Of a stretch of DNA of 20,785 nucleotides, positions 870 through 20,728 are shown piece by piece (positions within the stretch are counted from its first letter, which is position 1; every line of letters starts with the position of its first letter). The notes beneath the pieces were generated by a model that saw only the letters and a program-made list of their open reading frames with translations, had not been told where the DNA came from and made no database searches. The stretch is taken from positions 1 through 20,785 of IMG/VR virus record IMGVR_UViG_3300009129_000109, one strand, 5' to 3'. This stretch comes from a virus. Made by a program: the position numbers and the translations under genes.

Positions 870-2687
870 TTAGGAACCAGACTCACCAAGCAAGCCGCGA
901 ATGATAACCAAGCCATACATATCAGGACGAACCATCTTCTTTGCATAACGAGTCATAACACCCTTTCTCGGCACGAAGTCTTCAGGGCCGAAGATCGTGG
1001 GGGTAGTCTGTAGTGGCACATAAGGTGCGTATACATATCCACTCTCTAGGAAACTAGAGCCTCGGCGTCCTACTAGGACAACGTTGCGCAGGAAGTAAGG
1101 ATCAACGATAACGTCGAATTTCTTGGAAAGAGAACCAACCTTAACTGCACCAGCAGTACCCCTGTCGTCATCAGCGGTTACGCTTGCGCGGAAACCAGCC
1201 GTGAACTCAAGGATATTAGCAACTTCAGGTCCGCAGACGATGAAGTTAGCTCCACCGCGCAGAGTCTTACGATGAATCTGAGCGGACACATCATTGATGG
1301 TCTCAATCAGAGTCTCATACCACTCGCTAACGGTACCGGTGAAGTCTGGAGCAGCAGCGCTAGCACCAACCTCCGTACCAGTTGTACGATCTACGAACAA
1401 GCCCGGTGAGCGAGCCCAGTAGTACGTACTGGCGGTTGCACCATTTACCAGATCCGCAAGAATCTCACGGTCAATTTCAAGAGCAATCTGCTCAGAAAGA
1501 ATACTGGTAAGCTCGACTTCGGCGTCAAGGTTGTGATAGGCATTAAGATCCTGCCCCAACTCTGGCGTCCACTTAGCCTTGAGCTTTTTGGTTTGCGTGG
1601 TGACTGCCACTGAGTCGACCTTGATGTCGATCTCTGGGATTTGGTCGTTTCCTTCGAGTCCCCATTCAGTCGTACCGACAACCGCGCCCAATGCAGAAGC
1701 ATTAGTGAGATTGTCATAAATTGGCACCTGTACACCAAGTCCAGCACCGACAGAAGCAGAGCCTGCTCCACCAATACTTGCAGATGTCATAATACCAATA
1801 TGTCGAACTGCTGCTGCTGCCAGATCGTTATCGCCTGCAGCAACAAATGTCGTCAATCGACGCACTGAAGAACAAGCAGTATCACTAGCGAGTCCATCAA
1901 GACAAGTGTTCCATGCGGCACCACTAATCTCGAATGCAGCCAAGTTGTCCATATCAGTTTGAGCATCCGTATAAGTAGACTTCAAGAGATCGAGAACAAC
2001 TACCTTGTACGCAGTGCTTCCGCCTGATAACGCAACGAGATCAGGATCCCATTCGATAAGCTTAAGCTGAGCGTCAGTAGCATAAGTAATACTGTTGCCA
2101 CCGCCTAGGTAGAACTGATCCTTGAGAGCAACGCCGGTACCAGCAGCGAACTGAACGCTACTAGCGGACGGAGATGCGTATGCATAACCGCGAGCACTGT
2201 TGCGCGGACCAGAGAGTGAGGACGCGTCTGAAGAGACTAAGTCTACACCACCTGTGATCTGGCTACCAACCTGATCAGTACCGTAAATGGACTTATTAAC
2301 TAAGTTACCAAAACGGTCGGTCTGGCTAGCGGATGCTCCCAAGTCAGGGGAGAACACGAAGTCCAGGAAGAAAATGAGTCCACTTGGGAGACTCATGGGC
2401 TGAACACTAACGAGATCGTTGGCGATCAAGCCTGCAAAAACACGGCGAACGATGGGGAACGCGACGGCTGCGAAGCCTTCGACATCACCTGCTGCCATGG
2501 ATGAACTCTCACGGAGGAGTTCCTTTGCTTGATTTTCAAGCAATCGAGCCATTGTCTGACGCTTTTGATCAGAACCAAGCCCTTCGAGAAGACCAGTAGC
2601 CTCCCACTTATTTAACAATGCGTTACCTTCGGCACGCATATCACGATTAATGATACCTTCAGTTAATCTTTCTACAATACCAGCCAT
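870..2687 (-). CDS. gp23: Major capsid protein, T4 gp23 family
   Basis: This is the 605-aa subunit of the phage head shell. The recognisable gp23 signature lies at about residues 77-107, with FPIVRRVFAGLIANDL followed by SVQPMSLPSG. In T4 the matching region reads VRRA.PNLIA.D..GVQPM..P.G. Residues 1-60 are helical and charged, like the gp23 propeptide that gp21 removes after an (L/I)xE site. Here LRE at 58-60 followed by SSSMAAGD is the most T4-like candidate site, and LLE occurs at 33-35 and 49-51. Length exceeds the T4 protein (521 aa). AAAGGAGG lies 10 nt upstream of the ATG. The gene follows the scaffold after an 18-nt gap, probably in one transcript from the motif at 4038, and ends at a strong terminator. 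By eye its base composition is richer in G+C than the unknown genes further right, as expected for a highly expressed gene. Confidence 0.93.
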   Translation of the reverse strand: MAGIVERLTEGIINRDMRAEGNALLNKWEATGLLEGLGSDQKRQTMARLLENQAKELLRESSSMAAGDVEGFAAVAFPIVRRVFAGLIANDLVSVQPMSLPSGLIFFLDFVFSPDLGASASQTDRFGNLVNKSIYGTDQVGSQITGGVDLVSSDASSLSGPRNSARGYAYASPSASSVQFAAGTGVALKDQFYLGGGNSITYATDAQLKLIEWDPDLVALSGGSTAYKVVVLDLLKSTYTDAQTDMDNLAAFEISGAAWNTCLDGLASDTACSSVRRLTTFVAAGDNDLAAAAVRHIGIMTSASIGGAGSASVGAGLGVQVPIYDNLTNASALGAVVGTTEWGLEGNDQIPEIDIKVDSVAVTTQTKKLKAKWTPELGQDLNAYHNLDAEVELTSILSEQIALEIDREILADLVNGATASTYYWARSPGLFVDRTTGTEVGASAAAPDFTGTVSEWYETLIETINDVSAQIHRKTLRGGANFIVCGPEVANILEFTAGFRASVTADDDRGTAGAVKVGSLSKKFDVIVDPYFLRNVVLVGRRGSSFLESGYVYAPYVPLQTTPTIFGPEDFVPRKGVMTRYAKKMVRPDMYGLVIIRGLLGESGS

Positions 2688-2705: not shown

Positions 2706-4004
2706 TTAGTTATTCTTAATTCCGGCTAACCTTTTCATTCTGTCTAAGAATGGATCAGTTGTTTGTGCTTCTCTGCGAGATGCACGGATAATTGAAGACG
2801 GACGATTGATTGCTTCGCTCAACGATTGTGGGGCACGTTTAGTTTGTGCCGGCGCTGCGCTTTCAAGCGTTTCAAATATTGTCTTTGCCTCCATAACTGA
2901 ACCAGCATTAGAAATAGCTTCGGCAATTTTATCTTTTTGCCGCTCATTTAGGGAGGTATTTCTCAAAACACGGTTCGTGTAAAGCAAGCGCGCATTTGAA
3001 ATATTAACCTCTTGCAAGGTTTCTTTTATTTCTCCAACAGCCTGCTTATATTTTTTATTGCTCGCTTTGAGTTGCTTATTTTCAAAAACCAACTCTTCTT
3101 GAGCTTTTCTCAAAACATCTAAATCTTTTTTAACATCAGTAGTACGACGATGAGCAATTTCTTTTCCCATCTCCCACTTCTGACTTTCGGATGAGCGTCC
3201 TGCCCATCCACCTAATGTGGCGCCCATATCTACTGTGAGCTTTTCTGCGATGGCATCAATTAACTCATCGGGAATCTCTAGGCCTTCTTCTTGTTTTTCG
3301 CCTTCTTCGTCTTCCGTTCCCATGACATCAGCCTCAACAGCTTCGCTTCCGCCACTTGATTTTCCACCCCCTTCTAAAGAGTCCATAGCGTCTACATCGG
3401 CTTCTTCTTGTGCTGCAGCAGTAATTCCTGCTGTAGCTTCTGCCACCATCTTAATTAAATCTTCTTCATTAATATCAATTTCTTCTTCTAGTTCATCATC
3501 CTCTTCGGATTCCCATGAATGTTTGGGTTGTTTTCCGGCGATGTCTTTTTTAGCTACGCCCGGATCACTAGGAGATCGTCCGCCTCCACCCGTCTCAGTT
3601 TGTAGAGACTCTATAGCCTCCGCAAGAGCATCTAAATCAACAGTCACTTTCACATTTTCTCCTTCATCTTCTAAATGTTTTAATCCTTCGCCTTCCATTT
3701 CAGACAAATTATCTGTTGCAGATAAAGGAACTCCATCCACGATATCTTCAACTTCGGCTCCTTCTGCTCCCTCGATCCCCATCATGGGATCAGCAGCCAA
3801 GGGATCCGCCGCCATCGGATCGGCCGCCATCGGATCGGCCGCCATTGGATCGGCGGCAAGGGGATCTTCTTGTTCTAAAAGTTTATCGAGTGCTGTGCGC
3901 ACCTCATCAGAATACTTCTCTACAATCGAGGATTCTGCCGTCTTTAATGCGGCATCTCGTAACGCCTTAGCATCAATGATGGCTTCTTTTAGCAATGTTG
4001 ACAT
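2706..4004 (-). CDS. gp22: Prohead core scaffold protein, gp22-like
   Basis: This 432-aa, strongly acidic protein sits immediately before the major capsid gene, where T4 places gp22, the scaffold that gp21 degrades during maturation. The visible architecture is a helical start, then a DPxAA pentapeptide repeat (about residues 47-75), then a long Glu/Asp-rich low-complexity stretch with Gly-Ser patches. A probable coiled coil follows (about 280-345, rich in Lys, Glu, Leu and Gln). A basic tail ends in DPFLDRMKRLAGIKNN, a T4-like core-protein style of C-terminus. Several (L/I)xE tripeptides, such as LQE, could serve as protease sites. AGGAG precedes the ATG by 9 nt and a CTATTTA motif lies 34 nt upstream. 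T4 gp22 is shorter (about 270 aa); the extra length is the repeat and acidic regions. The assignment rests on position and composition more than on sequence identity. Confidence 0.8.
   Translation of the reverse strand: MSTLLKEAIIDAKALRDAALKTAESSIVEKYSDEVRTALDKLLEQEDPLAADPMAADPMAADPMAADPLAADPMMGIEGAEGAEVEDIVDGVPLSATDNLSEMEGEGLKHLEDEGENVKVTVDLDALAEAIESLQTETGGGGRSPSDPGVAKKDIAGKQPKHSWESEEDDELEEEIDINEEDLIKMVAEATAGITAAAQEEADVDAMDSLEGGGKSSGGSEAVEADVMGTEDEEGEKQEEGLEIPDELIDAIAEKLTVDMGATLGGWAGRSSESQKWEMGKEIAHRRTTDVKKDLDVLRKAQEELVFENKQLKASNKKYKQAVGEIKETLQEVNISNARLLYTNRVLRNTSLNERQKDKIAEAISNAGSVMEAKTIFETLESAAPAQTKRAPQSLSEAINRPSSIIRASRREAQTTDPFLDRMKRLAGIKNN
3780..3866 (-). repeat. 15-bp tandem repeat encoding DPxAA units in the scaffold gene
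   Basis: Five consecutive DP(L/M)AA units plus a partial sixth are encoded by near-identical 15-nt units (plus strand pattern like atcggatcggccgcc). The short perfect unit suggests expansion by slippage. Proline-containing spacing makes it a likely flexible linker in the scaffold. Confidence 0.9.
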
Positions 4005-9283: not shown

Positions 9284-9703
9284 TTATCCTACCCCTGCAG
9301 AACCAGACCAACTGGTACCCTTGTCAGTATCAGTCCTTTGTTTAGGAACATACGTTAATCCTGCAACTATATCCACGTTGCTCGATCCTGAAAGCCATAT
9401 TTCGCTTACCTTCACATCAATAATGGGAAGATACGACGCACGATCTGGTGCTCCCGAATGTTTATCGGGCAACGCAATCCAATTGTCGCCTTCTACTCCC
9501 AATTGCGAAAAGCCTATTTTAAGGTTGGTAACCCCAGTTCCCGAAAATCTATTTTGTACCCACACCCATTTAGTCACATGTGGGAACTGAACTTTCGTAG
9601 CAGTGGTACAATCAATACCACCCGACGCAAATGGAATGCCGCTAACTTGATAAGCTCCAACAGCATTTAATCCAGGCGCTAATTTCCATGAATCTCCCGG
9701 CAT
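9284..9703 (-). CDS. Probable virion protein, tandem paralogue B (139 aa)
   Basis: A close paralogue of the upstream 147-aa protein. Both start MPGDSWKLAPGL and continue YQVSGIPF.SGGID. Both share VTKWVWVQNR, APDRAS.LP and the C-terminal YVPKQRTDT..GTSWSGS.GVG. They differ mainly in the loop after the KIGFSQ/KVGFSE segment, where this copy is shorter. The protein is small, beta-rich and soluble, without Cys clusters or catalytic signatures. GGAG stands 7 nt before the ATG. Its place ahead of the fibre genes and within a late unit suggests a virion structural component such as a decoration or fibre-connector protein. I do not recognise a named family. Confidence 0.72.
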   Translation of the reverse strand: MPGDSWKLAPGLNAVGAYQVSGIPFASGGIDCTTATKVQFPHVTKWVWVQNRFSGTGVTNLKIGFSQLGVEGDNWIALPDKHSGAPDRASYLPIIDVKVSEIWLSGSSNVDIVAGLTYVPKQRTDTDKGTSWSGSAGVG

Positions 9704-9737: not shown

Positions 9738-10181
9738 CTATCCTACCCCGTTAGAGCCCGACCAACTTGTGCCTTGGGTAGTATCAGTACGCTGTTTAGG
9801 AACATAAGTCAATCCAGCCATTACATCTACGGCAGTCGATCCCGAAAGCCACAATTCGCTAATCTTTACGGGCAATGTAGGTAAATGAGAAGCTCTATCG
9901 GGCGCCGTCGAAGTGTCTTCCACGGTAAAAAAATACGTTCCTGCCGCATATCCTGCGCCAGTCCATGCAGCGTCGGCTCTCACTCCAGCTTCAGAAAAGC
10001 CCACTTTTAAATCATTGGAGTCGTCTCTATTCTGCACCCACACCCACTTAGTTACAGAGGGGAATTGAATCTTGAGGGCTGTCCTAGCATCAATTCCACC
10101 CGATACAAAGGGAATGCCGCTCACCTGATAAGAGCCAACGTTGTGTAGGCCTGGTGCTAATTTCCATGAATCGCCTGGCAT
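9738..10181 (-). CDS. Probable virion protein, tandem paralogue A (147 aa)
   Basis: This 147-aa protein duplicates the 139-aa neighbour; the two genes remain visibly similar at DNA level, especially at both ends. It carries an insertion relative to its sister (about residues 70-92, AAWTGAGYAAGTYFFTVEDT). This suggests that the conserved ends form the fold and the middle loop varies on the surface. GGAG lies 7 nt before the ATG. The CTATTTA motif at 10212-10218, 31 nt upstream, makes it the probable first gene of the fibre transcript (147, 139, 226 and 349 aa). Its function is unknown beyond probable virion component. Confidence 0.73.
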   Translation of the reverse strand: MPGDSWKLAPGLHNVGSYQVSGIPFVSGGIDARTALKIQFPSVTKWVWVQNRDDSNDLKVGFSEAGVRADAAWTGAGYAAGTYFFTVEDTSTAPDRASHLPTLPVKISELWLSGSTAVDVMAGLTYVPKQRTDTTQGTSWSGSNGVG

Positions 10182-10221: not shown

Positions 10222-10464
10222 CTATTTTTTTCTATTGCGTCTTTCTTGGGCTTTACGTTTTTTTCGTTCTTCTTTTAATCTCATCCGTTGTGCTCGAATT
10301 CGTTTTTCTTTCTTAGCAACAGATGGTTTTTTATATCGCTTACGATCACGCACCTCTTCAATAATGCGTTCTTTCTTGACTTTCTTAGTGAATTTTTTTA
10401 TCATTCTCTCAACGTTACCCCTTGTCTCTCTTGAAGTTACGCCAATATTATATGTTTTTGCCAT
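10222..10464 (-). CDS. rpsU: Ribosomal protein bS21 homologue encoded by the phage
   Basis: This 80-aa, extremely basic protein aligns without gaps to the bacterial small-subunit protein bS21 over its core. The segment ERMIKKFTKKVKKERIIEEV followed by RDRKRYKKPS corresponds to E. coli ALRRFKR...KAGVLAEV followed by RRREFYEKPT. The diagnostic F, EVR, R, Y and KP positions are all kept. A Lys/Arg-rich helical tail follows, as in bS21. An N-terminal extension of about 9 residues (to MAKTYNIGVTS) replaces the usual MPVIKVRENE strand. In bacteria bS21 sits near the anti-Shine-Dalgarno end of 16S rRNA and assists translation initiation. bS21 genes have been reported in phages, including aquatic ones. 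The gene lies 7 nt after the 138-aa gene, with an AGG overlapping that stop, so it is expressed with head genes. A host-ribosome modifier late in infection is inferred. Confidence 0.85.
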   Translation of the reverse strand: MAKTYNIGVTSRETRGNVERMIKKFTKKVKKERIIEEVRDRKRYKKPSVAKKEKRIRAQRMRLKEERKKRKAQERRNRKK

Positions 10465-10471
10465 TATATAC

Positions 10472-10888
10472 CTATTTCATTGCTTTCCAAATCGCGGAAG
10501 AATGTCCGAGAATAGAACTAATATCTACCCCTGCATCGCCGGGAGGACCCAAATCGGGTGCGCCGGCGGCAGACTGCCTGTGTGACATCGGCTCAGTTCC
10601 TTCAAACAAATCAACGCCATTATATGCGTCTGCTCCCATAGATTCCATCAATTTTTGACGGTGTTCTTGAACCTTCTTTCTCGATTCGTTAGACTGCTTG
10701 CGCATCTTCATATCTTCATTAAACATGCGTTTCGGAGCAGCCTCTTTTGTTTCCATAACGAGATTACCTTGCATGCCCTTAGCTACTTCAGCCACCACAT
10801 TCGAGAGAAGCCCCTCTTCTAGAAGGACTTCATGAATACACTCTTTAACTACAGGCTTGATTAAGCGTTTGAGATCTGACTTCTTCAT
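10472..10888 (-). CDS. Unrecognised head-cluster protein with Glu-rich N-terminal tag (138 aa)
   Basis: It overlaps the end of the 926-aa gene by 4 nt (ATGA), so translation is coupled. The N-terminus MKKSDLKRLIKPVVKECIHE, followed by VLLEEGLLSN, is a short amphipathic helix resembling the starts of the 217-aa and 926-aa proteins. It contains possible gp21-type (L/I)xE sites (IHE, LLE). The middle (about 50-95) is very rich in Lys, Arg, Glu and Met. The C-terminal part is Gly/Pro/Asp-rich and ends in SSILGHSSAIWKAMK. There is no membrane segment or catalytic motif. It may be an internal or core head protein processed by the protease. I do not recognise a family. Confidence 0.65.
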   Translation of the reverse strand: MKKSDLKRLIKPVVKECIHEVLLEEGLLSNVVAEVAKGMQGNLVMETKEAAPKRMFNEDMKMRKQSNESRKKVQEHRQKLMESMGADAYNGVDLFEGTEPMSHRQSAAGAPDLGPPGDAGVDISSILGHSSAIWKAMK

Positions 10889-13665
10889 CCATCACCCTTG
10901 CTAATTCCTGATAGCGTCTTCCATCTGCCAAGGACAGATTCTTTTAAGATGCCTTCTCCCATTGCTTCGGCTACGTTGGCCAGCTTCGCCGGCGGGGCAC
11001 TGGTGGCATCTGCTGTTTGTTTAGAAGACACGCCACCCTTTGTAACCGACTTCAATACACGCGTCAAAAGCGGCACCATTACACGAGCGTCATGAGGTTT
11101 TTTTAGTGACTGCAGGATACGATAAGATCCAGTGTCCTTTTTCTTTTGGAGATTATTCAGATGCGCTAATGCAGTAGAGGCTTTTTCTTTGCCAAATGCA
11201 CCTGCCATCTTTGCCACAGTTGTTCCTCCTTCTTGCACGGGGGCGCTCATTTGTCTCTTAATGTCTCCTAATGCATCCACAAACTCTCCCCAGTCTTCTT
11301 CAAAAGAATTTTCTGGAAACTGTTGAGCGTGGGCGCCTTCAAGATCTCTTAATAAACGCGCAACTTTATACGTTTTTCCTGTGCGTGTTTCGATTTCCTG
11401 CTGTTTAAATTTAGGAGGCAATCTATAAGTTTTCTTTTTAGGTACCTCTTCTTCCTCTTCTTCTTCTCCCTTTTCTGGATCGACACTTACAGTCGTATCA
11501 ACCGGCTCTTCTCCTTTATCCCACCTTGATACATCCTTGGTTAGAGAAAGATCATCTTGGGGGGTGGCGTCTGGTTCCAAGTCCCGTGTGATCACCTCTT
11601 CATCATCAACAGTGATTTTGGTTTCGTCGTCCTTTTTAGTCCGATCTTCATCATCAACTTCGTCATCCGTCTTAGTGATGGGCAACTCGTCCATGCCCTC
11701 AAAATGTGCCTGCGTAAGTCCCGCGTCTCCATAGATTCCCAAAATAGCCTTTATTACTTCTTTCACGTCTGCTGTCGTTATCGACGGCTCTTCGGACGCT
11801 ATGTATTCCTTCCATGCCTGGAAAACATTAATATTTTCTTTCTGTACCTTGGCGATAGAAGCGGGAGCTAATTTAAACTTGATCTTGTCGTTTTTGTTTG
11901 CTGCCTCGAAAGCTTGCAAAATATAATCTACTTTGACTGGATCATCAACCTTGTCGCCTACACGCGCTTGTACGGTGTCATAATCAATTATAACTTCTTG
12001 TTGAAGCCCAGGTTCGGTTATGGGGTCGACGGGCTCGACAGGACCCCGGTCCAGGTCGGTATCATCCGAAGTTTGTTCGATGTCATCGTCTTTCTTTTCG
12101 GGCTCAGGATCAATTGCTTGTTGTATTTTACTTTCTTCAGGCACAGGAAAGTCTACTAACTCTTTATATAAATCTGCGAGCATTTGTGCTCGTGAAGACT
12201 TCATGCCCTTCATACGAAGGAGCTTGACTGCTGCGCCGGCACTAACTAATCCAATGCCCAAAGCTGCGATCCATGGGCCGGCTGCAGCTAATTGATATGC
12301 GCCCAAAGATGTGGCACCCTGTCTGAAAACTGTCTTTGTCACTATCTTTGCAATCTTAGGAGTAAAAACATCGCCTCCTGCGCCGGGGGCCCCCGCTCCC
12401 GACAAGGGAATGACTTGTTCCAAAGTGGCTGCAGGATTTGTAGTTACAGCATTTGCAATATTGGTTGTCCACCAATTAGCGAAACCTGTATTTCCGCCGG
12501 CTGACGCCATATCTAATAAATTCTTTGTTGGATTGCCAGCACCATCAACAAGTCCCTTTGACGCCATTTGCTTCACAAAATCTCCGACGCCCAATTGGGA
12601 AAGATTCGCGCCTGGAGTCCCTTGTAACACTGCTAACTGTTCGGTTACTCCCACTCTGTCTGTTCCCATAATAACGTTCTTAAGTGTTACCCATTGTCCT
12701 GGGTCTTTAAACATGGCTATAAACCATGGCTGTTGGACAAGCCAACCAAATCCGGCTCCCAATGCTCCTAAAGCTGCCAGAACTGCTGGTGCCTTGTTGC
12801 TCTTGAGCCCTTTAATTGTGGCAGAATCTACCTCGTCGCCCTCTCTGCCGGCTTTTGTATAGCTCGCGCCCGTTGGGCCCTCGGGTGCAGCATAAGCCGC
12901 TGTGCGGCCCTTTTGTAACTGAGGCTGTCTAGTGTCAGTTGCAGCACCTACGTTTCCAGGCATAATTGGAGCTTCTTTTAAATTCTTGGTATGCCATTCT
13001 TGAAGCTGTTCTGCCAGAACATCTTCCGGTATTTCTTTTTCTTCTGTGAAATGCTTATAAGCGTCTGCCAATTGAAAATCAAGAAGCCATTTTACATATT
13101 CTCTCAAAGCTTTCACAAGATAATTTGCTGCTGCAGGTCCACCAGGGAAATTGCCCGACTCAACGGCGGCCTCGGCTGAATCATATACACCACCAATTTC
13201 ATATAGTGCTGCCATAAAATCAACCTTTTCTCTCATATTAGGAAACTCTTTATGCTCTGCCTCAATATTTTTCTTAAAATCTCCGAAGCCTTTCTTCATG
13301 GCGCCATCAATAGCAGCTTGTACTTTTTCCAATGCGGCAGCAACGCGTTCTTTGCGCTTGCCAAAGATCTTGCCACCCTTCTCAAGAGAGCCCATCCTGC
13401 CCATAGTATATTTGATATTGGTCCAAATGCCCTCTTCAATAAGCGATGAATCAAACTTGTCGCCATGCTCTGCTTTAAGGTATTCTTGTAAAACCACCGA
13501 CCAGAAATCTTTGCGTTCCTTTATAAGTTTTTGATGTTCTTTAAGAATGTCTTGATTTAATTTAAAAACCAAGAGTTCTTCCTGGATAATCGTCGCAGTC
13601 TTCCTGATATCTTCCTGGCGATTTATTTCCTCTAAAACAATTTGTGCAAGTTGTGGTTTATTCAT
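10885..13665 (-). CDS. Large probable internal head protein (926 aa), unrecognised
   Basis: It begins 8 nt inside the end of the gp21 gene, with GAGG 9 nt before its ATG. Residues 1-35 (MNKPQLAQIVLEEINRQ, then TIIQEELL) resemble the tag of the 217-aa protein, including a shared IIQEEL. Residues 40-230 are helical and charged. Residues 235-290 are Ala/Gly/Pro-rich. Two hydrophobic segments lie at about 292-311 and 458-482, flanking a Gly/Asn-rich region. Residues 515-560 and 660-742 are highly acidic, including a run of seven Glu. The C-terminal ~180 residues are basic and helical, ending near ILKESVLGRWKTLSG. This size, the tag, the acidic linkers and the hydrophobic segments fit an internal or ejected head protein, or a very large core protein. 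I see no lysozyme, polymerase or nuclease motif. The function is unknown. Confidence 0.7.
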   Translation of the reverse strand: MNKPQLAQIVLEEINRQEDIRKTATIIQEELLVFKLNQDILKEHQKLIKERKDFWSVVLQEYLKAEHGDKFDSSLIEEGIWTNIKYTMGRMGSLEKGGKIFGKRKERVAAALEKVQAAIDGAMKKGFGDFKKNIEAEHKEFPNMREKVDFMAALYEIGGVYDSAEAAVESGNFPGGPAAANYLVKALREYVKWLLDFQLADAYKHFTEEKEIPEDVLAEQLQEWHTKNLKEAPIMPGNVGAATDTRQPQLQKGRTAAYAAPEGPTGASYTKAGREGDEVDSATIKGLKSNKAPAVLAALGALGAGFGWLVQQPWFIAMFKDPGQWVTLKNVIMGTDRVGVTEQLAVLQGTPGANLSQLGVGDFVKQMASKGLVDGAGNPTKNLLDMASAGGNTGFANWWTTNIANAVTTNPAATLEQVIPLSGAGAPGAGGDVFTPKIAKIVTKTVFRQGATSLGAYQLAAAGPWIAALGIGLVSAGAAVKLLRMKGMKSSRAQMLADLYKELVDFPVPEESKIQQAIDPEPEKKDDDIEQTSDDTDLDRGPVEPVDPITEPGLQQEVIIDYDTVQARVGDKVDDPVKVDYILQAFEAANKNDKIKFKLAPASIAKVQKENINVFQAWKEYIASEEPSITTADVKEVIKAILGIYGDAGLTQAHFEGMDELPITKTDDEVDDEDRTKKDDETKITVDDEEVITRDLEPDATPQDDLSLTKDVSRWDKGEEPVDTTVSVDPEKGEEEEEEEVPKKKTYRLPPKFKQQEIETRTGKTYKVARLLRDLEGAHAQQFPENSFEEDWGEFVDALGDIKRQMSAPVQEGGTTVAKMAGAFGKEKASTALAHLNNLQKKKDTGSYRILQSLKKPHDARVMVPLLTRVLKSVTKGGVSSKQTADATSAPPAKLANVAEAMGEGILKESVLGRWKTLSGISKGDG

Positions 13666-14266
13666 CTGCTAATACCTCATTTAATAAGCGATTGATTCGA
13701 TCTGCTCGTGTGAATATATTGGATTCTTTTAAATTCTTTGCTTCGGACATCATATATGCCCCTGGAGTTGATGGCTCAGAAACGAAATCAAAACAGATCA
13801 ATTGAAAATCGTCTTGTACCGTGGTAGCGCCGTTGTTCTCGCTCACAGAGCCCATCCCACGAGAAGAGATACCAAGCTTAACACCCGACTCTACCAGTGA
13901 ACGAAGAATATTGCCAGAAGGAGTGTTTAAAACTTTTACTTTACCCATCACACTTTTGTCCTCCATCCAAACAGAAGTAACCATATGTGATGCGTTTTTG
14001 AGATTAATAACTGAGTCATCGGGATGATCTAATTCTCCCAGCGCTCTTTTTTCTTTTACGAGCTTTTGGTAATTCTTAACTTCTCTCATCAAAGTTTTGA
14101 AAGGGTAAACTCTTCCATTACCGTTTTGTATATCGGCTTCTTGTAATTTGCCCGAAAGCATCATGCCGCCGTTTGACACAAATCTTTTTTCATCTTCTGT
14201 CAAAAGATCTTGACATACGCCACCCTCGCAGAGTTCGTAATATTCTCGTAAAAGTACTTTTCCCAT
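13658..14266 (-). CDS. gp21: Prohead core protease, T4 gp21 family
   Basis: This 202-aa protein is the serine protease that cleaves scaffold and capsid protein during prohead maturation (T4 gp21, about 212 aa, peptidase family S77, herpes-protease-like fold). The family's catalytic His is seen at about residue 81 in GELDHPDD. The catalytic Ser is at about 134-135 in KLGISSRGMGSV. The early GKLQEADIQNGNGRVYP segment is also typical of gp21-type proteases. The start overlaps the 217-aa stop by 1 nt (TAATG) without a clear ribosome-binding site of its own, so it is probably translated by coupling. It lies upstream of scaffold and capsid genes as in T4, but separated from them by about 9.6 kb of extra genes. 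Its (L/I)xE preference underlies the proposed cleavage sites in neighbouring proteins. Confidence 0.92.
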   Translation of the reverse strand: MGKVLLREYYELCEGGVCQDLLTEDEKRFVSNGGMMLSGKLQEADIQNGNGRVYPFKTLMREVKNYQKLVKEKRALGELDHPDDSVINLKNASHMVTSVWMEDKSVMGKVKVLNTPSGNILRSLVESGVKLGISSRGMGSVSENNGATTVQDDFQLICFDFVSEPSTPGAYMMSEAKNLKESNIFTRADRINRLLNEVLADE

Positions 14267-14919
14267 TATTTATTTTTTAAAAACCTCTTTAATTCTTCTT
14301 GGATAATCCGCGTAATCATAGACTCTTGAAACGGAATATCATATTCCCCTTCTGGGGCGGGTCCAGCTTCTCTACCTTCGAATCCACCAGCCGGCGGAAC
14401 AAACTTGTACCGCTGTTCCGTTGGAAACTCTCCCGGTTTATATACTGAGTCAGGTACCGGATTGGCATCTTCTGGGACTCGTGGCCAGCCATCTTCATCC
14501 ATATTTGGTGGGCCACCACGGCTCTCACTAGCCTCTGGAAAGATGGAATCACCAGTTTTTAGTGCTTGTTTTGCGCGGCTTACCCAATAGTCTTTACCCC
14601 ACTTTTCCATTATATGCTTAAATTCATTAATTACGGTTCTCTTAGAAAAAAGATAATATCGATAATCATCAGACCATTTTTCAAAACCAGCGGTGGGCGC
14701 CTTTTTAATCTCATCTTCAAGTGCCGATTCCCATACTCTCTGTATATCGGGAGCGTAAGGTTCCTCGCCCTTCTTCTGATCGCGCAGATAGTTGCCTGCT
14801 ACGTCCTGCATGCCAATCTTTCTTCTGCCTGTTTCGCCGGCGCCGTACATCGCTTCCGAAGTAACATTAGATATCTCTTCTTCAACTATCTGTTTAAGTT
14901 GTGATTTAGTAATCTTCAT
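14266..14919 (-). CDS. Head-cluster protein with tags at both ends (217 aa)
   Basis: The N-terminus MKITKSQLKQIVEEEISNV is a short amphipathic helix. A similar element closes the protein (MITRIIQEELKRFLKNK). IVE and IQE within them fit the gp21 (L/I)xE cleavage rule. Between them lies a Trp/Tyr-containing helical region (about 60-130: VWESALEDEIKK, WSDDYRYYLFSKR, KDYWVSRAKQAL) and then a long Pro/Gly/Glu-rich, probably disordered stretch (130-195). The gene directly precedes and overlaps the protease gene by 1 nt. AGAGGA lies 6 nt before the ATG, itself just downstream of a small GC hairpin (14937-14951). Location and tags suggest a scaffold or core protein packed inside the prohead, in the place T4 gives to gp67/gp68. 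Homology to these is not visible. Confidence 0.7.
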   Translation of the reverse strand: MKITKSQLKQIVEEEISNVTSEAMYGAGETGRRKIGMQDVAGNYLRDQKKGEEPYAPDIQRVWESALEDEIKKAPTAGFEKWSDDYRYYLFSKRTVINEFKHIMEKWGKDYWVSRAKQALKTGDSIFPEASESRGGPPNMDEDGWPRVPEDANPVPDSVYKPGEFPTEQRYKFVPPAGGFEGREAGPAPEGEYDIPFQESMITRIIQEELKRFLKNK

Positions 14920-19144: not shown

Positions 19145-20728
19145 TCACTTTATAATCCATTTATATTGATCATACATATTCTTTGCTTCATTTATTTTAT
19201 CAAAGATGTTATCTTTTTTGTAGCCCTCTTGGCCACTTATCCTGGTATTGAAGGATGTATTGGTAGTTTTAATAGAACCAAGGAAGGCTTTGTGATAATT
19301 TAAATCTCGCGCGTTTGCTTGAATAGCGGTATCTCGTACCCAGCAACCTATAGCAAGAGCCATTACTAGATCATCATGATAGCTTTTCATAGCTTGGGGT
19401 TTGCCATTTTTCCAAATAAAAGTTTTCATTTCGTTTACTAGTCGTGAAGAATATATTTTAATTAGTTTGTTTCTGATAAACTCCTCTAATTTCGCGACGA
19501 TCAAGGGACGCGTCTTCATCGAAGTGGTGAAACCTGGGATGGCGCTATTTCTTATTTCGGCCTGGTGTTGCTCAATATATTCATGGGTGGACTTAATTGA
19601 ATAATAAAGATTGGGATATTGGTATTCTATGAGCTTGTCTAGTACTGTGTATCCAATATTATTATTTTCAACTACCAGCATACATCCCCCATATTCTCTA
19701 CCCACTTGATTCAGCATATTGGCATACATATCTGGGGTTGGCTTTCCTTGATACTCTCCTACCACTTCTAATGTTTCTAATTTTATAATATGAAAAGTAG
19801 AATAGTCAGCAGCGTCTCCACGTGCAACATCCACTACCATTAAATAATTACACGTGGGATCATGTTCTTCCCAGATCCAAAAGTTTCGATCAAAACCAGT
19901 ACGATATTTAGGCTCCCTCACACACGTCAACAGCCACTCCATACAATCAGGATCAATAACAGTTTCGCCTGAAGTATTAAAGTTACATTCTAATTCTTGT
20001 GCAATCTGTCGTTTCGACATATTTTTGGTTTCTTTCTTATACCACTCTTCATCTCGTTCAGGGTGCACATCCCACATGAGAGTTGTCAAATTAAAATTGT
20101 TTGTTCCTGCGTCTGCGTCCGTGCACGTCTTGTGAAACCAATTTCCCACACCGTTGGGAGTAGACAAAGCAATACAGCGTCCACCGGTGGATAGCGTGGG
20201 ATACAAACCTGTCCAGAGTTCTTCTAAACCTTCGATGTGTGCCGCTTCGTCCAATACCAAAAGAGACAACGCCTCCGAACGGCCAGCATCGCCAGAAGTG
20301 GAGGCGGCCTTAATAGAAGAACCGTTAGAAAGCTCAAACGAAGTTCTGTTGTCTACATCAATAGTGGCAATCTTTAACCAGTCTGGAAGATTACGCATGA
20401 TGCCTTTTACTTTTTTTACTAAGTTACCCGCCGTTGCAAACTTTGTTGCCATTACAAGAATTGCTTTATCTCGATGAAATAACATCATCCAAACAATATA
20501 ACCAGCCGTAATCGTTGAGATGCCAAGCTGGCGGGCTTTTAAAATAACATTAAAACGATAATCGTTAAAGTTATCCAGCAAATCGTCCTGAAAGTCATAC
20601 GTGTCAAATAAAATAAGACCGTGTAGTGGATGCGAGATCCTCGCATACGTCTTTAAAAAATAGGCAGAATCTTTGCCGCACTTTAATATCTCTTTTACTT
20701 TTTGTTTTTTGTCTAATTGAAAGCTCAT
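19145..20728 (-). CDS. gp17: Terminase large subunit, T4 gp17 family (packaging ATPase and nuclease)
   Basis: This 527-aa motor protein pumps DNA into the prohead through the portal and cuts the concatemer. The N-terminal ATPase has a Walker-A-like LKARQLGIST at about 63-72 and Walker B LLVLDEAAH at 156-164, with catalytic Glu161. The coupling motif ALSTPNG follows at 187-193. The C-terminal RNase-H-like nuclease has its acidic residues in VVDVARGD (Asp300), LVVENNN (Glu354) and YHDDLVMALAIG near residue 455. Length is shorter than T4 gp17 (610 aa), mostly at the N-terminus, but all motifs are intact. Only 9 nt separate it from the portal gene, whereas in T4 the tail sheath and tube genes 18 and 19 lie between 17 and 20. 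The ATG at 20728 has a weak GAAG-type ribosome-binding site. The small subunit is not in the window, unless it is the partial gene upstream. Confidence 0.96.
   Translation of the reverse strand: MSFQLDKKQKVKEILKCGKDSAYFLKTYARISHPLHGLILFDTYDFQDDLLDNFNDYRFNVILKARQLGISTITAGYIVWMMLFHRDKAILVMATKFATAGNLVKKVKGIMRNLPDWLKIATIDVDNRTSFELSNGSSIKAASTSGDAGRSEALSLLVLDEAAHIEGLEELWTGLYPTLSTGGRCIALSTPNGVGNWFHKTCTDADAGTNNFNLTTLMWDVHPERDEEWYKKETKNMSKRQIAQELECNFNTSGETVIDPDCMEWLLTCVREPKYRTGFDRNFWIWEEHDPTCNYLMVVDVARGDAADYSTFHIIKLETLEVVGEYQGKPTPDMYANMLNQVGREYGGCMLVVENNNIGYTVLDKLIEYQYPNLYYSIKSTHEYIEQHQAEIRNSAIPGFTTSMKTRPLIVAKLEEFIRNKLIKIYSSRLVNEMKTFIWKNGKPQAMKSYHDDLVMALAIGCWVRDTAIQANARDLNYHKAFLGSIKTTNTSFNTRISGQEGYKKDNIFDKINEAKNMYDQYKWIIK

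Follow-up and report, generated by a model that had tools for sequence, protein, structure and literature searches.

A bS21 gene fixed within the T4-type head module of a phage group

According to the published survey, bS21 is the commonest ribosomal protein in viral metagenomes, accounting for 88% of those detected (Mizuno 2019, PMC6375957), and S21 is described as core to the pelagimyophages, where it lies in no specific gene cluster (PMC7029224). The bS21 of the Pelagibacter phage HTVC008M is reported to enter E. coli 70S ribosomes, and protein output in vitro from ribosomes carrying it was only ~5% of the control (Mizuno 2019, PMC6375957). For Bacteroidetes phages, Chen 2022 (PMC9723584) reports high, simultaneous expression of bS21 and the structural genes, as well as divergence of bS21 in its N-terminal helix, which sits over the anti-Shine-Dalgarno (anti-SD) where mRNA would bind. 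In the same account, 388 of the 900 published bS21 phages have one of six structural genes no more than 10 genes away, 310 of them with a prohead protease nearby; late exchange of bS21 into host ribosomes was already proposed there for the huge phages of Bacteroidetes, and packaging of the protein was also raised. The idea of a phage bS21 that is encoded beside head genes, made late, exchanged and perhaps packaged is already published (Chen 2022; Mizuno 2019).

Here, we analyze a 20,785-base IMG/VR virus record (the window, by which we mean the whole stretch of DNA), which is probably a fragment, and whose phage clade may well be among the bS21 phages of Chen 2022. The explanation we favor, with somewhat better than even confidence, is that a fixed head-module bS21, made late, takes the bS21 site of the host 30S subunit and biases initiation toward late phage messages. 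Ribosome exchange is thus our best reading of the window and also the hypothesis put forward in the published account (PMC9723584).

The bS21 gene and its head-module setting

In the window, the identified genes share the minus strand. TerL and portal come first, followed by several further genes, gp21, a 926-aa gene, p138, bS21, six genes, a 432-aa gene, and gp23:

19145..20728, minus strand: terminase large subunit, TerL (phrog_2, E 4.1e-53; 47.6% identity to the TerL of Flavobacterium phage immuto)
17120..19135, minus strand: portal protein gp20 (phrog_213, E 5.2e-70)
13658..14266, minus strand: prohead protease gp21, peptidase S77 (PF03420, E 2.7e-29; phrog_207, E 8.2e-55)
10885..13665, minus strand: 926-aa head-module protein between gp21 and p138 (ORF; no PHROG match)
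10472..10888, minus strand: p138, the 138-aa gene directly upstream of bS21 (conserved position; gp21-type cleavage consensus)
10222..10464, minus strand: bS21 gene, 80 aa (PF01165, TIGR00030, AF2 helices, dN << dS)
2706..4004, minus strand: 432-aa gene immediately ahead of the capsid gene, in the scaffold (gp22) position (position; conservation beside the major capsid protein, MCP)
870..2687, minus strand: major capsid protein gp23 (PF07068, E 1.1e-71; Shine-Dalgarno AAAGGAGGT)

The bS21 gene sits between the gp21 protease and the gp23 capsid gene of a T4-type head module, and the same-strand matches to gp21, portal, and gp23 around it bear out the initial annotation, which had described a bS21 gene packed among head genes. 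The 926-aa gene overlaps its neighbors gp21 and p138 by 8 and 4 bases, respectively. "Scaffold" is a name by position for the 432-aa gene, which has no significant Pfam or PHROG family match; of the six genes between it and bS21, the first two were searched against Pfam and PHROG and have no match. Two adjacent genes at 9738-10181 and 9284-9703, without a Pfam or PHROG match, resemble tandem paralogues, both starting MPGDSWKLAPGL.

The earlier reading gave no strand for bS21. In the ORF listing of the window, the gene is an 80-codon ORF running from ATG to stop at 10464..10222 on the minus strand, while the plus-strand frame at 10222-10464 is interrupted by stops. The gap to p138 (10465-10471) measures 7 nt, as the earlier reading had stated; the product is basic, with 35 K/R, 10 D/E, and a pI of ~11.5. 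Its proposed identity as bS21 was upheld by profile searches, in which the protein matches PF01165 (E 9.3e-10, 38.5 bits against a gathering cut-off of 27) and the NCBIfam equivalog TIGR00030 (E 4.8e-8, 32.7 bits against a cut-off of 28.95), and these two curated profiles above cut-off rule out a generic basic protein. It also matches PHROG 21469, "ribosomal protein S21" (E 1.1e-3). In a sequence search of solved structures, 33 of the 35 sequences with E ≤ 1 are S21 proteins; the top match, 9i5v (E 9.3e-6), aligns without gaps over residues 16-59. Residue 16 of the window protein aligns with residue 10 of Flavobacterium johnsoniae bS21, so its N-terminus extends about 6 residues further. A tblastn search of the protein against a phage collection gave no match, though the collection includes a phage with annotated S21; the BLAST low-complexity filter is a likely reason. 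We conclude that 10464-10222 on the minus strand encodes a true bS21.

The bS21 core (F, R, Y, and K-P-S) is kept, as the initial annotation had stated: in an alignment of 38 bS21 sequences, F25 and S48 are invariant, and Y44, K46, and P47 are each conserved at 90% or above. Over the 55 columns compared between phages and cells, the core residues dominate in cells too; the core Arg is carried by 93% of the cellular and 88% of the phage sequences. The AF2 model, built from the alignment of 38 sequences that includes the window's, predicts helices spanning residues 18-31, 34-43, and 47-79 (mean pLDDT 86.6, pTM 0.41). Foldseek returned 10 matches to this model, all of them ribosome entries and 4 of them S21 chains, every one with E > 1; these E-values and the pTM of 0.41 count against our favored explanation.

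A chance ORF is ruled out by conservation in relatives and by low dN. Against the two nearest non-identical relatives (L007 and L008), dN is ~0.06 with dS of 0.89 and 1.27, and dN is below dS in all 11 computable pairs of 12 (dS is not computable for L030). Two of these pairs are unequal in length: L040-L094 has 78 versus 68 residues (an ungapped comparison), and L035-L034 has 78 versus 79. The bS21 gene is under purifying selection. Together with the retained core residues, such selection also favors an alternative that we regard as unlikely, in which phage bS21 would simply stand in for host bS21 that is lost or limiting at the late stage, sustaining overall translation without favoring phage mRNA.

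The placement of bS21 recurs in relatives. A bS21-seeded scan gave 41 IMG/VR loci, a set biased by its own seed, and where their flanks reach, we observe gp21, p138 (except in L043), bS21, the scaffold-position gene, and the capsid gene on one strand. An MCP-seeded set comprises the best 80 of 597 relatives, whose capsid proteins are 58-85% identical to that of the window. Among these best 80 of 597, bS21 lies between gp21 and MCP on the same strand in 16/16 loci spanning both and appears without gp21, again on that strand, in 6 more partial loci; it is on the head-gene strand in all 22 loci showing bS21. The other 58 show neither bS21 nor gp21, and 9 of these extend at least 5 kb upstream of the capsid gene. 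We searched 30 whole records, consisting of those 9, 17 capsid-seeded records with known bS21, and 4 bS21-seeded records. Within the 9, L077 has both genes and the other 8 have neither; across all 30, 22 records contain one bS21 each (20 above the Pfam cut-off) and 20 contain gp21, every one of which also carries bS21. As an independent count, bS21 is present in 17/17 gp21-bearing capsid-seeded records from the best 80 of 597 relatives, L077 included. In the window's phage group, bS21 is fixed within the T4-type head module, and the proposal that its placement is meaningful is borne out and broadened.

The neighboring genes travel with it. We find p138 in 61 of the 63 loci with bS21; measured from the bS21 start, its stop falls anywhere from 21 nt before to 11 nt past in 58 of the 61. 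Pairwise distances of bS21 correlate with those of TerL (0.85, 29 loci), p138 (0.81, 61 loci), gp21 (0.74, 54 loci), portal (0.59, 40 loci), and MCP (0.49, 45 loci), and each correlation was reached in 0/500 permutations. Thus, bS21 is co-inherited with its neighboring genes.

In T4, the consensus for gp21 cleavage is [LI].E[AGS], and head proteins can carry a capsid-targeting N-terminus. Although p138 has no significant Pfam or PHROG match, a gp21-type consensus occurs in 57/61 p138 sequences versus 19.9 in shuffles, and in 44 of the 56 full-length sequences it starts within residues 18-28, where shuffles give 1.7 (in the window, it is LEEG near residue 25). It is possible that p138 is a prohead core protein, and because the above-chance consensus follows its amphipathic N-terminal segment, this segment may be a capsid-targeting sequence. 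Similar short amphipathic starts are shared by the head-module proteins p138, 14266-14919, and 10885-13665 (MKKSDLKRLIKPVVKE, MKITKSQLKQIVEEEI, and MNKPQLAQIVLEEI). By eye, a 484-kb phage (L004, LR756508) has a run of small ORFs at 29000-34500, between portal-like and protease-like ORFs, many of which start approximately MKxxExKLRxIIRxEL, as if an N-terminal motif had expanded; in the same phage, intein-like insertions seem to break ORFs at 21930-23711, 23793-27953, and 34510-36234, the portal-like and protease-like ones included.

In bS21 itself, the consensus is found in 2/63 sequences versus 4.0 in shuffles, which is not above chance. The virion packaging raised in the initial annotation therefore finds no support in the sign tested, and we consider it quite improbable that bS21 is a basic internal capsid protein that would be delivered to the next host or would condense DNA. 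The gene does adjoin gp21 and the scaffold-position gene, the protein carries a strong positive charge (35 K/R of 80), and packaging has been raised for phage bS21 before (Chen 2022, PMC9723584); set against these points are the contrast with p138 and the kept bS21 core, though packaging might proceed without such a signal.

Clade-specific residues and phylogeny

Residue counts given here are of distinct cores, 54 from the window clade and 180 from cells. At one site, all 54 clade phages have Lys, which is found in 0/180 cells, where Glu is most common (133/180). Six residues on, the clade has Glu (48) or Asp (4), together 52/54, whereas neither is found in any of the 180 cells, which have Lys, Ser, Arg, or other residues. 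We refer to these as charge-swap sites 1 and 2. Two further sites differ: one with Lys/Arg in 180/180 cells retains Lys in 2/54 clade phages, and one with Ala in 161/180 cells has Ala in 5/54. These counts confirm the earlier remark that the N-terminus differs from the bacterial form. The two charge-swap substitutions are also unexpected if phage bS21 were a plain replacement for the host protein, unless an unsampled host shares these residues. Of the other phage types, Mel-JY01 (a Microcystis phage) has both charge-swap residues (Lys and Glu), while no Lys was counted at site 1 in the HTVC008M type (29) or in the Bacteroidota type (12).

The glycine at the turn between helices 1 and 2 behaves differently. 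It is Arg33 in the window bS21, and the clade has Arg/Lys in 46, Gly in 7, and Thr in 1 of 54. Cells keep Gly in 163/180, comprising 124/124 outside Bacteroidota and 39/56 within; of the 17/180 non-Gly cells, 16 are Bacteroidota sequences (16/56) with Lys/Arg. Bacteroidota-type phage bS21 (L341-L366) have Lys here in 11 of 12 distinct sequences. In the best-scoring part of the cellular set (107), 3 have Lys at this position. Convergent loss of the turn glycine across two phage lineages was considered as a phage hallmark and rejected, given the 16/56 Bacteroidota cells with Lys/Arg and the 7/54 clade members that keep Gly.

Our bS21 trees use ~55 columns and cellular sequences from four phyla; L043 was left out of the trees and distance tests, and identical or odd-length cores were left out of the trees. 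Against 107 distinct, best-scoring cellular cores, 51 phage bS21 form one clade with a support of 0.71, which becomes 0.85 once Mel-JY01 is included, and HTVC008M falls outside. The cellular set was enlarged to 180 distinct cores by adding 80 lower-scoring sequences. In this largest tree, 52 of the 54 phage cores group with Mel-JY01 (0.83), while the same 52 without Mel-JY01 are supported at only 0.06, which counts against our favored explanation. In the same tree, 11 Bacteroidota-type phage bS21 group together (0.94), and Bacteroidota cellular sequences adjoin them (0.84-0.85). One and the same set of head-module profiles hits the window clade as well as the Bacteroidota type, from which we infer that bS21 entered the T4-type head module at least twice.

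Expression signals and a possible role at the ribosome

In T4, the late-promoter octamer is TATAAATA. The window contains a single copy, located on the strand that does not encode the genes, with 1.26 expected by chance; T4-type late promoters are thus rejected as not above chance in the window, and this count weighs against our favored explanation. Sigma-70-like promoters are uninformative as evidence (43 found versus 39.7 expected). The 7-nt gap makes co-transcription of bS21 with p138 likely. From gp21 to bS21, terminator-like sites on the minus strand are weak (5-6 pairs) and lie within genes, while the strongest such sites on this strand are at 845-818, 5296-5270, and 130-101 (31 sites found, 16.5 expected). 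As the one at 5296-5270 separates bS21 from the capsid gene, the latter may have its own transcript. For bS21, late timing is inferred from the gene neighborhood only.

The Shine-Dalgarno of the window's capsid gene, AAAGGAGGT, has an energy of -13.2 kcal/mol. The median is -11.5 kcal/mol over 104 capsid starts, which include reference phages and some near-duplicates, and -4.8 over 63 bS21 starts. A script picked the starts, and the start-site set leaves out L003, L119, and L001, which duplicates the window. The SD of the window's own bS21 gene (-3.8) is the fourth weakest of 20 window genes, so little bS21 may be made, which again counts against the favored explanation. In Bacteroidota-type phages, an SD is found at 0/11 capsid starts, and in Flavobacterium phage immuto, 12/12 head-region genes are SD-less. 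Strong SDs in the window, compared with these SD-less immuto genes, make a Bacteroidia host unlikely. On the other side, a Flavobacteriaceae MAG includes one relative contig (L129), but SD-like sites precede its gp21 and p138. Contigs with this phage bS21 and head genes (L129, L130, and L131) were seen in MAGs of Flavobacteriaceae, Acidiferrobacteraceae, and Micavibrio, and each of these MAGs contains two S21 matches, of which one seems to come from a phage; MAG binning of relatives is not decisive as a host clue.

In Bacteroidia, an aromatic residue, Tyr54, is reported to sequester the anti-SD (PMC9976891). The corresponding site in the window bS21 is Arg60, based on the 9i5v alignment extended by one residue. 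An aromatic residue is found in this column in 0/54 of the window clade versus 12/12 Bacteroidota-type phages, and among cells in 15/56 Bacteroidota and 0/124 others. Each kind of bS21 therefore matches the initiation mode of its own phage's genes, which suggests that phage bS21 acts at the ribosomal anti-SD. The match shows retention rather than adaptation, as inheritance from a donor gives the same match, and the SD pattern is also that of an ordinary SD-using phage, as would be expected if bS21 only made up for a host shortage.

Under our favored explanation, bS21 would share transcription with the head genes at a late stage of infection, and its translation would follow directly on that of the p138 protein. 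It would then occupy the bS21 site of the host 30S, a site whose protein is exchangeable. The protein retains the conserved Y-x-K-P-S where the long C-terminal helix begins. With no aromatic residue at the Tyr54 site, the anti-SD would stay free for the strongly SD-led capsid message, and the altered first helix and turn (the charge swap and the lost Lys/Arg), said to face the mRNA path, could bias initiation to late messages. Both 30S incorporation and mRNA selectivity are thus predicted properties of the phage bS21.

The low in vitro activity reported for HTVC008M bS21 (~5%, PMC6375957) counts against this explanation in that it fits inhibition as well as redirection. Taken at face value, the poorly active E. 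coli ribosomes favor a phage bS21 that would act mainly as an inhibitor by making host ribosomes poor at host messages. We hold this to be very improbable: placement in a head module suits production, the phage's late genes depend on the same ribosomes, and the assay crossed distant hosts with a bS21 from outside the window clade. Returning to late ribosome exchange, a broader version is one that we put forward tentatively and with well under even confidence, in which two unrelated bS21 were captured by the same kind of head module at separate sites and in opposite orientations, each keeping anti-SD handling suited to the genes of its phage, and the charge swap that the window clade later gained in its mRNA-facing first helix would yield a late ribosome dedicated to strongly SD-led capsid messages. 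Taken as a whole, the initial interpretation stands in its bS21 assignment, its head module, its meaningful placement, and its differing N-terminal half, and falls short on packaging, where the cleavage consensus in bS21 did not exceed shuffles.

Comparison with described phage bS21 systems

Like the window, HTVC008M is a T4-like myovirus with a phage bS21. Its protein differs in having 27% identity to that of the window, in lacking the Lys/Glu charge swap, and in falling outside the clade, and its gene is at 91228, ~16 kb from the capsid gene, between the CobS gene and Hsp20. Of 80 loci seeded with this bS21, those that extend to a head gene number 6 (L326-L331) and are arranged like the window; only 25 of the 80 are at least 15 kb, making the absence of head genes in the other 74 weak evidence. 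The 75-aa neighbor of gp21 in immuto does not encode bS21, and the annotation of the 41-kb region lists no S21.

The RpsU of Mel-JY01 (PP395634) is sense and located between the prohead protease and the scaffold-position/capsid genes, and it groups with the window clade (0.83-0.85). It differs in having 33% identity and in keeping the turn glycine and the Lys lost by the clade, and, unlike the window, Mel-JY01 has no match to the p138 profile. Three loci and the reference make up this type, all with a sense bS21 between gp21 and the scaffold-position gene.

The Bacteroidetes huge phages, as described in PMC9723584, share with the window a bS21 within the TerL-portal-protease-capsid region, although there it is antisense to the head genes, whereas in the window it is sense. 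The Bacteroidota-type loci that we collected with Bacteroidota cellular bS21 as the seed (28 loci, of which 26 extend to a head gene) are matched by the same head-module profiles as the window clade. In these, bS21 is antisense in 26/26 placeable loci and lies in the portal/gp21 interval where both genes are seen. The window bS21 follows gp21, is non-aromatic, and accompanies SD-led genes, whereas the Bacteroidota type precedes gp21, is aromatic (12/12), and accompanies SD-less capsid genes. Sense placement after gp21, fixation in the group, the Tyr54/SD contrast, and the charge swap are not described in the portions of published accounts considered here (e.g. PMC9723584), and relative to these, the new elements are the sense placement after gp21, the non-aromatic Tyr54 site with strong SDs, and the charge swap, at sites never altered in that way in 180 sampled cellular sequences. 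A fixed head-module bS21 with clade-specific residues and an SD-strong capsid message provides concrete test material for specialized phage ribosomes, and it extends the case of Bacteroidota bS21 to phages with SD-using genes.
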